Source: an uncultured Flavobacteriales bacterium (GTDB taxonomy: Bacteria > Bacteroidota > Bacteroidia > Flavobacteriales_E > Vicingaceae). From it: a DNA stretch of 64,000 nucleotides. A program made the position numbers and the translations under genes. The stretch is taken from NCBI GenBank assembly GCA_913056345.1, contig CAJXMH010000006.1, forward strand, positions 62,001-126,000, given 5' to 3'. This document shows, piece after piece, positions 30,713 through 32,322 of this stretch (its first letter is position 1; every line of letters begins with the position of its first letter). The notes beneath the pieces were generated by a model. That model saw nothing but the letters and a program-made list of their open reading frames with translations. It ran no database searches and had not been told where the DNA came from.

Positions 30713-31890
30713 GCCACACTTCCTACATAGAGCTAAACCAAGCGAATCTCAATCAAAATGTTGATTACATCAGAAGTCACTTAAAACCAAGCTGTCGTTA
30801 CTCTGCTGTAATTAAAGGAAATGCATACGGTCATGGAATTGAAGCTATTGTGCCTTTACTTGAGCAGTCCTCTATCGATCATTTTTCTGTTTTTAGCGTA
30901 GCTGAAGCAAAGAGAGCTTTAGAGAGTTCAAGCGATGCAAGTGAAATTATGATCATGGGCTATCTTGATCAGGAAGACATGGAATGGGTGATTAAGAATG
31001 GAATCTCTTTTTATGTTTTTAGCTTTCCAAGGCTTGAAGAAGCCGCCAAAGTAGCTGCCGATATTGGAGTAAAAGCTAAAATTCATGTGGAGTTAGAAAC
31101 CGGCATGAACCGAACAGGTTTTCGCGAAGAAGAACTAGACCTGCTAATCAACTTTTTAAAAAAAGAAGTAAAACACTTTCAAATAGAGGGGATCTGCACC
31201 CATCTAGCGGGTGCTGAAAGCATAACCAATTACGACAGGATTCAAGATCAAATAACTAGCTATCATCATTTTCTAGATCGATTTTATCAAGAAGGATTTA
31301 AACCTAAATATAGGCACATGGCCTGCTCATCGGGGGTGTTAAATTACCCTGAGACACAACTAGACCTAGTAAGAGTTGGTATATCAAATTACGGCTATTG
31401 GCCAAGCAATGAACTTCGAATGAACCGTTTACTGAAAGAGAAAGACTTTCACGACCCCCTTGAAGCGGTATTGTCATGGAAGAGCAAGATCATGAGCCTG
31501 AAAAAAGTACCTGAAGGCGAATATGTTAGTTATGGGAAAAGCTATTTAACCAACCGCCCATCCTTGATCGCAAGTGTTCCTGTTGGCTATGGATATGGTT
31601 TTAGCAGGGATCTAAGTAATCTGGGAAGAGTTTTGATTCACGAAAATAGAGTTTCTGTTATAGGCGTTGTAAATATGAATATGATGCTGGTTGACGTAAC
31701 AGATCTAGCCGAAAAAGTAAAAGAGGGCGATGAGGTAGTATTAATAGGATCCCAAGGAAAACTGGAGATTAGTGTGAGTTCTTTTAGTGATATGAGCAAT
31801 AGCTTAAACTATGAGCTGCTAACTAGACTACCTAGTTTTATTCCAAGGAAAGTAGTCAAGCATCAAGAAGCTCAAGGTTTAGAAAATTAA
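30709..31890 (+). CDS. alr: Alanine racemase
   Basis: PLP enzyme interconverting L- and D-alanine for peptidoglycan. 393 aa, fold-type III: PLP lysine K36 in YSAVIKGNAYGHG, 'HVELETGMNRTGF', 'CTHLAGAES', 'GISNYGYWP', second catalytic Tyr region 'VSYGKSYLTNRPSLIASVPVGYGYGFSRDLSN', and 'GVVNMNMMLVDVTD'. It is a stand-alone gene rather than the MurF-Alr fusion seen in some Bacteroidota. Translationally coupled to the M20 hydrolase. Its stop codon overlaps the first bases of the repeated tRNA/GIY-YIG segment that follows. Confidence 0.93.
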   Translation: MSHTSYIELNQANLNQNVDYIRSHLKPSCRYSAVIKGNAYGHGIEAIVPLLEQSSIDHFSVFSVAEAKRALESSSDASEIMIMGYLDQEDMEWVIKNGISFYVFSFPRLEEAAKVAADIGVKAKIHVELETGMNRTGFREEELDLLINFLKKEVKHFQIEGICTHLAGAESITNYDRIQDQITSYHHFLDRFYQEGFKPKYRHMACSSGVLNYPETQLDLVRVGISNYGYWPSNELRMNRLLKEKDFHDPLEAVLSWKSKIMSLKKVPEGEYVSYGKSYLTNRPSLIASVPVGYGYGFSRDLSNLGRVLIHENRVSVIGVVNMNMMLVDVTDLAEKVKEGDEVVLIGSQGKLEISVSSFSDMSNSLNYELLTRLPSFIPRKVVKHQEAQGLEN

Positions 31891-31976
31891 ATTCCCATAA
31901 AGGGTGTCGGTTTGTAGCGAGGGAGGGACTCCCCGCCCGAACGGCTGATGCCATTCAGTCGGGCGGGGAACCCACG
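31889..31976 (-). repeat. Second copy of tRNA-Met 3' end plus GIY-YIG gene start, interrupted by a palindrome
   Basis: Positions 31889-31931 repeat 32223-32265 with one mismatch in 43, and after a 36-nt insertion the match resumes for 9 bases (31968-31976 versus 32266-32274). On the minus strand the copy contains the T-arm and acceptor 3' strand of tRNA-Met, the spacer, and ATGGGAATTT, the first codons of the GIY-YIG gene, then a stop. It is a truncated duplicate of the tRNA/GIY-YIG junction. Confidence 0.85.
31932..31967. repeat. 36-nt GC-rich palindrome (REP-like) inside the tRNA-Met fragment
   Basis: Arms CCCGCCCGA and TCGGGCGGG (9 bp, extended by one C:G pair from the flanks) with an inner CTGA/TCAG stem: an imperfect hairpin. 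It interrupts the duplicated tRNA exactly in the T-loop, between TTC and GAG. Far more GC-rich than the surroundings. REP-like or a miniature mobile palindrome; no T-run follows, so it is not a typical terminator. Confidence 0.7.
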
Positions 31977-31983
31977 TTCAGGA

Positions 31984-32232
31984 TTAATCAAAAAGGTGTT
32001 TCTTAATCCACCTTCGTCCTGCTGCGGTCTTAAAGTACTTTTCCCTTTCTACAGCAGAATCGCGGTCTGTAAAACTTTCAGAGTAAATCAATCGCCAAGG
32101 GATACCTGATTTGGTGCTTTTGGTCTTTCCTTGATTATGGGATTTTAAACGGGTGGCAAGGTCTTGAGTGTGACCTTTGTAAAGTTTTCCGCTCAATTCA
32201 CTTTGCAAGATGTAGGTGAAATAAATTCCCAT
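31984..32232 (-). CDS. Small GIY-YIG nuclease-family protein
   Basis: 82-aa single-domain GIY-YIG protein (UPF0213/YhbQ-like). Catalytic landmarks: 'FTYILQS' (GIY strand), 'LYKGHTQDLATRLKSHNQG' (YKG in place of YIG, with the conserved Arg) and 'AVEREKYFKTAAGRRWIKK' with the metal-binding Glu. It starts 17 bp after the 3' end of tRNA-Met on the same strand and is followed by a partial copy of the tRNA 3' end. I infer a solo homing-type or DNA-repair-like endonuclease gene that travels with tRNA 3' ends. No experimental role is known to me for this group. Confidence 0.85.
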   Translation of the reverse strand: MGIYFTYILQSELSGKLYKGHTQDLATRLKSHNQGKTKSTKSGIPWRLIYSESFTDRDSAVEREKYFKTAAGRRWIKKHLFD

Positions 32233-32274
32233 GAAGGGTGTCGGTTTGTAGCGAGGGAGGGACTCGAACCCACG
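32223..32274 (-). repeat. Direct repeat (intact copy) across tRNA-Met 3' end and GIY-YIG start
   Basis: 52-nt segment shared with the interrupted copy at 31889-31976. It spans the first 10 bases of the GIY-YIG gene, the 16-nt spacer and the last 26 bases of tRNA-Met (T-arm and 3' acceptor strand). The two copies are 334 bp apart and in the same orientation. Confidence 0.85.
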
Positions 32275-32322
32275 ACCTCAGCATTATGAGTGCTGCGCTC
32301 TAACCACCTGAGCTACCTCGCC
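32249..32322 (-). tRNA. tRNA-Met(CAT), elongator type
   Basis: 74 nt. On the minus strand: acceptor GGCGAGG (paired with CCTCGCT, G:T at the first pair), D-arm GCTCAGGTGGTTAGAGC, anticodon arm CAGCA-CTCATAA-TGCTG with anticodon CAT, T-arm GTGGG-TTCGAGT-CCCTC, discriminator A. CCA is not encoded. The D-arm and anticodon arm resemble elongator tRNA-Met rather than initiator tRNA; a lysidine-modified tRNA-Ile2 with the same CAT anticodon cannot be fully excluded. Confidence 0.93.

Follow-up and report, generated by a model that had tools for sequence, protein, structure and literature searches.

The locus lies entirely on the minus strand of the window, by which we mean the whole 64,000-nucleotide stretch of DNA analyzed here, and consists of a tRNA-Met(cat) gene followed, after 15 nt, by an open reading frame for a GIY-YIG nuclease, beyond which lies another tRNA 3' end. 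The intact tRNA-Met (positions 32248 to 32322, minus strand; found with ARAGORN, with an Rfam tRNA score of 68.6 bits) is contiguous, the spacer occupies positions 32233 to 32247, and the solo GIY-YIG gene (31984 to 32232) encodes a single-domain protein of 82 amino acids. Its reading frame is also open upstream, through the spacer and into the tRNA. Between the two tRNA copies, the GIY-YIG frame is the sole recognizable gene, and no integrase was found there. No intron family was matched between positions 31300 and 33000, even at an E value of ≤1, which, together with the uninterrupted tRNA-Met, argues against a group I intron with an intronic endonuclease.

The earlier note took the second tRNA copy (31976 to 31888) to be merely truncated, but it is interrupted by a palindrome that had been missed. 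Read along the minus strand, this copy begins with a stub of the T-stem and loop, CGTGGGTTC (31968 to 31976, from alignment to the intact tRNA), continues with a 36-nt palindromic hairpin, CCCGCCCGACTGAATGGCATCAGCCGTTCGGGCGGG (31932 to 31967, from sequence and folding), and resumes with the tRNA 3' half, GAGTCCCTCCCTCGCTAC (31914 to 31931, from alignment of the direct repeat). The hairpin sits in the T-loop, at GGTTC^GAG, exactly between TTC and GA, with 0 tRNA bases lost, and the fold energy of its strand stands apart from that of shuffled sequences (z = -3.4). After the 3' half come a copied spacer and the first 11 nt of a second GIY-YIG gene (31888 to 31913), and then host sequence. A direct repeat of 47 nt with 96% identity (32219 to 32265 and 31885 to 31931), in the same orientation and 334 bp apart, thus takes in the tRNA 3' end, spacer, and initial GIY-YIG codons; this is far above chance, and the repeat described in the earlier note is real. 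The broken copy runs through the spacer into the start of a second gene and is therefore what is left of another tandem unit; locus L089 shows the same arrangement with a longer piece of the second GIY-YIG gene. The earlier proposal that a unit made of a tRNA 3' end and a GIY-YIG gene was added in tandem is incomplete, since the second copy is a broken tRNA with a cognate palindrome.

The intact tRNA retains the T-loop sequence that is interrupted in the broken copy, that is, what would be the presumed nuclease's own recognition site. The counterpart of the broken-copy junction in the intact gene is GTTC^GAG (32265 to 32266, minus strand), within a T-loop site, GTTCGAGTC, that is a close but not a full match to the motif GTTCSAWTY. 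This motif comes from SegB, a phage GIY-YIG homing endonuclease reported to give cleavage peaks within tRNA genes, with the motif RAWTSGAAC (PMC13096335); RAWTSGAAC is the reverse complement of GTTCSAWTY, and the assignment of the latter to the T-loop is our own reading of the published motif. By position, the window junction, GTTC^GAGTC, and several T-loop loci elsewhere agree with GTTCSAWTY. A cut in the T-arm, as proposed earlier, would thus fit the window, although the T-loop site applies to only part of the family.

The 82-amino-acid protein matches PF01541 (E = 1.6e-16) and no other family, and it has no room for the DNA-binding domain that homing endonucleases usually have. Counterparts of the catalytic Arg and Glu, together with a His column, are conserved in 99% of 82 relatives; the protein thus has the nuclease domain of a homing family with its catalytic residues intact. 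The nearest solved structures by sequence are the UPF0213 proteins 1zg2 and 1ywl, and the nearest folds to the AlphaFold model (pLDDT, 88.8) are UPF0213 1zg2 and Slx1. As Slx1 is a structure-specific nuclease, the modeled fold would suit cutting at extruded hairpins.

A class search with the window protein covered 149 genomes, with draft and metagenome assemblies among the sources, and gave matches in 57 of them; 76 loci were analyzed, 65 of which come from other genomes of that search. A tRNA lies within 300 bp of the GIY-YIG gene at 53 of these 65 loci, and four more were added by hand: L071 and L097, with a tRNA or degenerate tRNA just upstream, and L104 and L106, which are two-unit arrays. 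Lack of tRNA linkage among homologues, which the earlier note had named as grounds for abandoning its idea, is accordingly not what was found, as 57 of the 65 close relatives are linked, and chance proximity is about 1% (estimated from 33 tRNAs in 2.9 Mb). Every one of the 59 tRNAs that the whole set has within 300 bp shares the strand of the GIY-YIG gene. The loci were picked by similarity to the window protein, so that this linkage describes its subfamily and not all GIY-YIG proteins. A few relatives do not stand at tRNAs (L094, L096, L121, and the clade of L001 to L003). No relative of the gene was found in viral contigs, and phage and plasmid collections gave remote matches only, one of them to a phage.

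At most loci, the tRNA has a partial duplicate on the opposite side of the GIY-YIG gene, usually abutting its stop or start codon, so that there are two modes: intact tRNA, GIY-YIG gene, and broken copy, or broken copy, GIY-YIG gene, and intact tRNA. Among the inserts that could be placed without loss of tRNA bases (n = 48), 38 lie in or at the D-loop, anticodon loop, or T-loop, against 16.6 expected (p = 3.5e-10). The inserts fold much better than shuffled sequences (median z, -3.0), and palindromes are about 10 times denser within 100 bp of the gene than more than 500 bp from it. The T-loop is the site in only part of the family, and other clades use the D-loop or anticodon loop; the main Met clade carries the palindrome TCCGCC..GGCGGA after the anticodon sequence CATA at loci from many host families. 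Searched for in relatives, the exact window hairpin gave few matches beyond chance, as each clade has a palindrome of its own. Several broken copies hold two to four palindromes at different loops, and not every palindrome can therefore stand for one cut; L082 (1250 to 1500, reverse strand), for example, is a broken tRNA-Ser with four palindrome-containing insertions, distributed over the D-loop (two), the anticodon loop (one), and the T-loop (one).

The two modes follow the site of insertion. At T-loop sites, the intact tRNA stands upstream of the gene; at D-loop sites, it is mostly downstream (p = 1.9e-5 for relative position). An element that carried the shorter end of the tRNA, together with a stub from the other side, would be expected to give this pattern. 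The reverse pattern is what a single crossover with a circular element would give, and that model was dropped.

Comparison of occupied and empty sites indicates how the arrangement arises. Ten relatives from the same family have a plain tRNA-Met beside a conserved SRPBCC gene, with neither a GIY-YIG gene nor a second 3' end; this site is occupied only in the window genome (G000) and in G015, where locus L156 has a GIY-YIG gene of another clade and another palindrome. Within genus g29, one orthologous tRNA-Met locus is empty in G116 and occupied in G080, and in G037 it has a palindrome-bearing broken copy without the gene. In G080, the terminator behind the broken copy is orthologous to that of G116, whereas a different terminator stands behind the intact tRNA. 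Occupied, empty, and GIY-less states were also found at another site in genus g52. Empty and occupied target alleles thus coexist among relatives, as expected of a homing element, and they show that the unit was inserted inside the tRNA gene and the tRNA was reconstituted. By analogy with G080 and G116, the 3' half of the broken copy in the window (31914 to 31931) would be the native half, and the intact tRNA-Met would be a hybrid of a native 5' part and a 3' part supplied by the element (32265 to 32248).

The check suggested by the earlier note, to look at tRNA-Met in gene-less relatives, mostly found a plain tRNA at the same site. A duplicated tRNA end in such relatives was to have counted against the idea, and this applies in part: GIY-less broken copies occur at L172, L176, and L188 and in three tRNAs of the window genome, and the ten relatives above are empty. 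The GIY-less broken copies look like derivatives that have lost the gene, and they may be decay products or nonautonomous elements.

The GIY-YIG tree follows the tRNA target and not the host. It requires 31 changes of isotype (shuffled mean, 41.9; minimum of 2,000 shuffles, 36) and 48 changes of host family against 47.0 in shuffles, and thus carries no host signal; the alignment is short, and many forks of the tree are not resolved. Nearest neighbors share the isotype in 30 of 61 cases (7.3 expected) and the host family in 8. Across host families, the distance between palindrome arms rises with the distance between the GIY-YIG proteins (Spearman coefficient, 0.365; 0 of 2,000 permutations as high). 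There is therefore a tendency for gene, target, and palindrome to move as a set, and spread is independent of host phylogeny with fidelity to the target, as in homing elements. These comparisons support the concept of the GIY-YIG genes as target-specific units that move horizontally. The earlier suggestion of selfish homing to tRNA 3' ends is partly supported, by the tRNA linkage and by a tree that follows isotype rather than host, but D-loop and anticodon-loop sites are used as well, and the intact tRNA is sometimes downstream.

Within the window genome, viewed as the stretches around tRNA and GIY-YIG matches, the hairpin occurs three times with up to 3 mismatches, and a looser search added a fourth, more diverged copy. 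All four directly follow GGTTC within a broken duplicate of whichever tRNA stands just upstream: the tRNA-Met of the window, tRNA-Leu(gag), tRNA-Leu(caa), and another tRNA-Met, which has the diverged copy. Only the window copy has a GIY-YIG gene; the three other hairpin-bearing broken tRNAs are GIY-less. Among the 33 tRNA matches listed, only a handful have hairpin-bearing broken copies, and several other solo GIY-YIG genes of this genome are not adjacent to a tRNA.

Further loci, in this genome and in others, have features of their own. At L055 (1340 to 1760, window genome), tRNA-Pro(ggg) has broken copies of itself on both sides, one with a palindrome in the D-loop, and a truncated GIY-YIG gene adjoins. 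L001 (contig C5 of the window genome) is a GIY-YIG gene away from tRNAs that is bracketed on both sides by near-identical palindromic repeats, CTTGTCAGTTCGAGTG...TCGAGAACAAGACAAGG, and the genes at L002 and L003 are likewise flanked by palindromic repeats. At L005 (contig C2 of the window genome), a solo GIY-YIG gene stands about 420 bp behind the tmRNA gene, with repeated palindromic units between them. An element of about 170 nt, starting with TACTTGGTGAT or TACTTGATGA, is found behind tRNA 3' ends at L010 (1150 to 1640, tRNA-Leu gag, also in the window genome), L011, and L172 (tRNA-Met, G099), in genomes of two different families. Its ends are long and inverted, its core resembles AAAAGCGAGCAA..GCTCGCTTTT, and it may be a noncoding passenger of the GIY-YIG/tRNA system.

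The arrangement also extends beyond the class. In L100 (Gottesmanbacteria), L101 (Levybacteria), and L102 (an unclassified bacterium), a palindrome-broken tRNA 5' end is followed by a GIY-YIG gene and an intact tRNA; for Patescibacteria, the evidence consists of two contigs, those of L100 and L101. At L103 (G009:C9, reverse strand, 2446 to 7015), ten head-to-tail units of 457 bp, nine of them identical, follow one tRNA-Met, each with a GIY-YIG gene and two palindrome-bearing tRNA remnants, although an assembly error is possible in this case. Tandem arrays are also present at L105 and L106. In the clade of L094, L096, and L121, which is not found at tRNAs, the GIY-YIG gene stands between the arms CCCGTWGGAT and ATCCWACGGG; L094 and L096 appear, when read by eye, to lie inside integrase- or transposase-like genes. 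The genome that hosts L121, G082, has 29 dispersed, gene-free hairpins of the form CCCGTWGGAT-loop-ATCCWACGGG with variable loops (L217 to L226 and others). A gene flanked by a cognate palindrome that is also dispersed without the gene is thus found in this genome, and the window genome has only a few such copies.

The explanation that we favor, at a probability of roughly 0.7, is that a selfish GIY-YIG element, specific for a tRNA isotype, inserts at a loop of a tRNA gene, restores a working tRNA, and leaves its palindrome as a tag on the half that it displaces. The element would consist of a short tRNA piece from one side of the loop site, the GIY-YIG gene, a tRNA stub, and the cognate palindrome. 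In a new host, its nuclease would cut or nick the corresponding tRNA gene at the loop, and donor-templated repair would copy the element in, with tRNA sequence conserved between species as the homology. In the architecture that results, the native half lies beyond the GIY-YIG gene with the palindrome at the junction, and the carried tRNA piece would provide the rebuilt, working tRNA. Each clade tends, statistically, to have its own tRNA isotype and palindrome. Units are seen stacked in tandem and without the GIY-YIG gene, and presumably these states arise in that direction, by stacking and by loss. The palindrome is probably the end of the element or a recognition sequence of the nuclease, and it would block recutting of the broken copy. 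Against this explanation stand the protein's lack of room for a DNA-binding domain, the T-loop site kept by the intact tRNA, which is a difficulty for self-protection, the broken copies with several palindromes or without a GIY-YIG gene, the few relatives away from tRNAs, and the searches that gave no copy in viral contigs and only remote matches in phage and plasmid collections. Relatives of the gene that do likewise, each at its own kind of tRNA, are present in many Bacteroidota and at least two Patescibacteria, and this points to a selfish family that is largely undescribed.

Palindromes could instead be independent, REP-like repeats that enter any spare hairpin loop and pile up in broken copies because these are free to decay, with the element itself moving as proposed. 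This is unlikely, although it accounts for several observations: the palindrome CCTGCCTGCCGGCAGGCAGG is dispersed in 27 of the 149 genomes, with up to 82 copies, palindromes are nested or present several times in one broken copy, and they occur in GIY-less broken tRNAs as well. The tracking of GIY-YIG clade by palindrome arms across host families argues against this reading, as does the higher frequency of GIY-YIG genes in genomes with CCTGCCTGCCGGCAGGCAGG (17 of 27 versus 40 of 122, p = 0.005). The genes of L094, L096, and L121 between two palindrome arms, along with the 29 GIY-less copies of that hairpin in G082, also speak against it.

A broader form of the selfish-element reading can be put forward tentatively, with the odds somewhat against it. 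The single-domain, Slx1-like GIY-YIG protein and its cognate palindrome would be an enzyme-substrate pair, a non-HUH counterpart of RAYT/REP systems that inserts at DNA hairpin loops, chiefly in tRNA genes, where it rebuilds the tRNA, and that spawns gene-free palindromes in several bacterial phyla.

Much less probable is that the GIY-YIG protein acts on the tRNA as RNA, as a tRNA-specific RNase, toxin, or regulator, with the hairpin-bearing broken tRNA as a decoy or guard RNA. The pairing of GIY-YIG clade with tRNA isotype would suit this, the gene and the broken tRNA are on the same strand and probably in one transcript, and the Septu phage defense is known to cut a tRNA loop (PMC13096335). 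However, the family fold, nearest to Slx1 and UPF0213, is that of DNA nucleases, and the difference between occupied and empty alleles is a DNA insertion inside the tRNA gene. Further, the tree does not track the host, and ten-copy arrays and truncated genes fit a selfish element. It is more improbable still that the tRNA loop is the attachment site of a separate tyrosine recombinase, with the GIY-YIG gene merely as cargo. The anticodon loop and T-loop of tRNAs are classical attachment sites, and integration there restores the tRNA 3' end; yet these inserts are a few hundred base pairs long and have no integrase gene, target isotype tracks GIY-YIG clade, and D-loop cases rebuild the intact tRNA on the downstream side. 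Plain tandem duplication of the tRNA and its neighbor, through slippage or unequal crossing-over and without any targeted mobility, is very improbable: it would account for the arrays at L103, L105, and L106 and for the spacer and GIY-YIG start shared by the window copies, but it leaves unexplained the isotype-specific clades common to several host families, the palindromes at loops, and the G080 intact-tRNA terminator that differs from that of the empty allele in G116.

Bacterial annotation has many solo GIY-YIG genes with no functional explanation, and under the selfish-element reading, the close relatives of the window gene gain a testable role as selfish dwellers in tRNA genes that replace the part they break. 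Their isotype-specific clades are a ready set of nucleases with predicted targets, and the covarying palindromes are a possible origin of REP-like hairpins in Bacteroidota. Broken tRNA copies also account for odd tRNA fragments and fused reading frames. Work on SegB, which is reported to drive tandem amplification of a tRNA segment (PMC13096335), suggests that such nucleases also amplify tRNA genes, and these elements may therefore shape tRNA copy number and defense.

In the literature covered, which takes in a minority of subscription journals and no bioRxiv preprints, no article was found that connects solo GIY-YIG genes of bacteria with copies of tRNAs or with palindromes. The parts have precedents in SegB, REP/RAYT systems, and integrative elements at tRNAs, but their combination is not described in any paper found. 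As with SegB and the free-standing GIY-YIG endonucleases of T-even phages, the window gene is a GIY-YIG nuclease gene beside tRNA genes, and segB is listed between tRNA-Arg and tRNA-Ile (PMC2988022). Unlike the phage-borne SegB type, however, it is chromosomal, without a relative in viral contigs, consists of a single 82-amino-acid domain, and is flanked by two copies of one tRNA, of which one is intact and the other broken. Its family also has cognate palindromes and isotype-specific clades, whereas the colocalization of SegB with tRNAs is reported without isotype preference. The domain architecture is that of UPF0213 or YazA-type solo GIY-YIG proteins, and neither tRNA linkage nor palindromes were found described for UPF0213 proteins in the literature searched.

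The association of a small nuclease gene with a cognate dispersed palindrome, as in G082, where the arms flank the GIY-YIG gene and 29 copies are present, resembles REP/RAYT systems. RAYTs are HUH (Y1 tyrosine) transposases, whereas the window protein is a GIY-YIG protein that matched only PF01541, and we know of no description of RAYT/REP units that invade tRNA genes. Mobile open reading frames of fungal mitochondria, such as that in Allomyces atp6, carry with them a new 3' end for the gene that they enter, so that, as in the proposed element, insertion into an essential gene is offset by a carried end and the old end is displaced. Their target, however, is a protein gene, and to our knowledge there is no palindrome at the junction. 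The tRNA-targeting integrative elements, the tyrosine recombinase islands, likewise exploit the loops and 3' ends of tRNAs and leave the tRNA restored; in contrast to them, the window unit is about 0.3 kb long and has a GIY-YIG gene only, with no integrase, and its family includes D-loop sites at which the 5' part of the tRNA is reconstituted.
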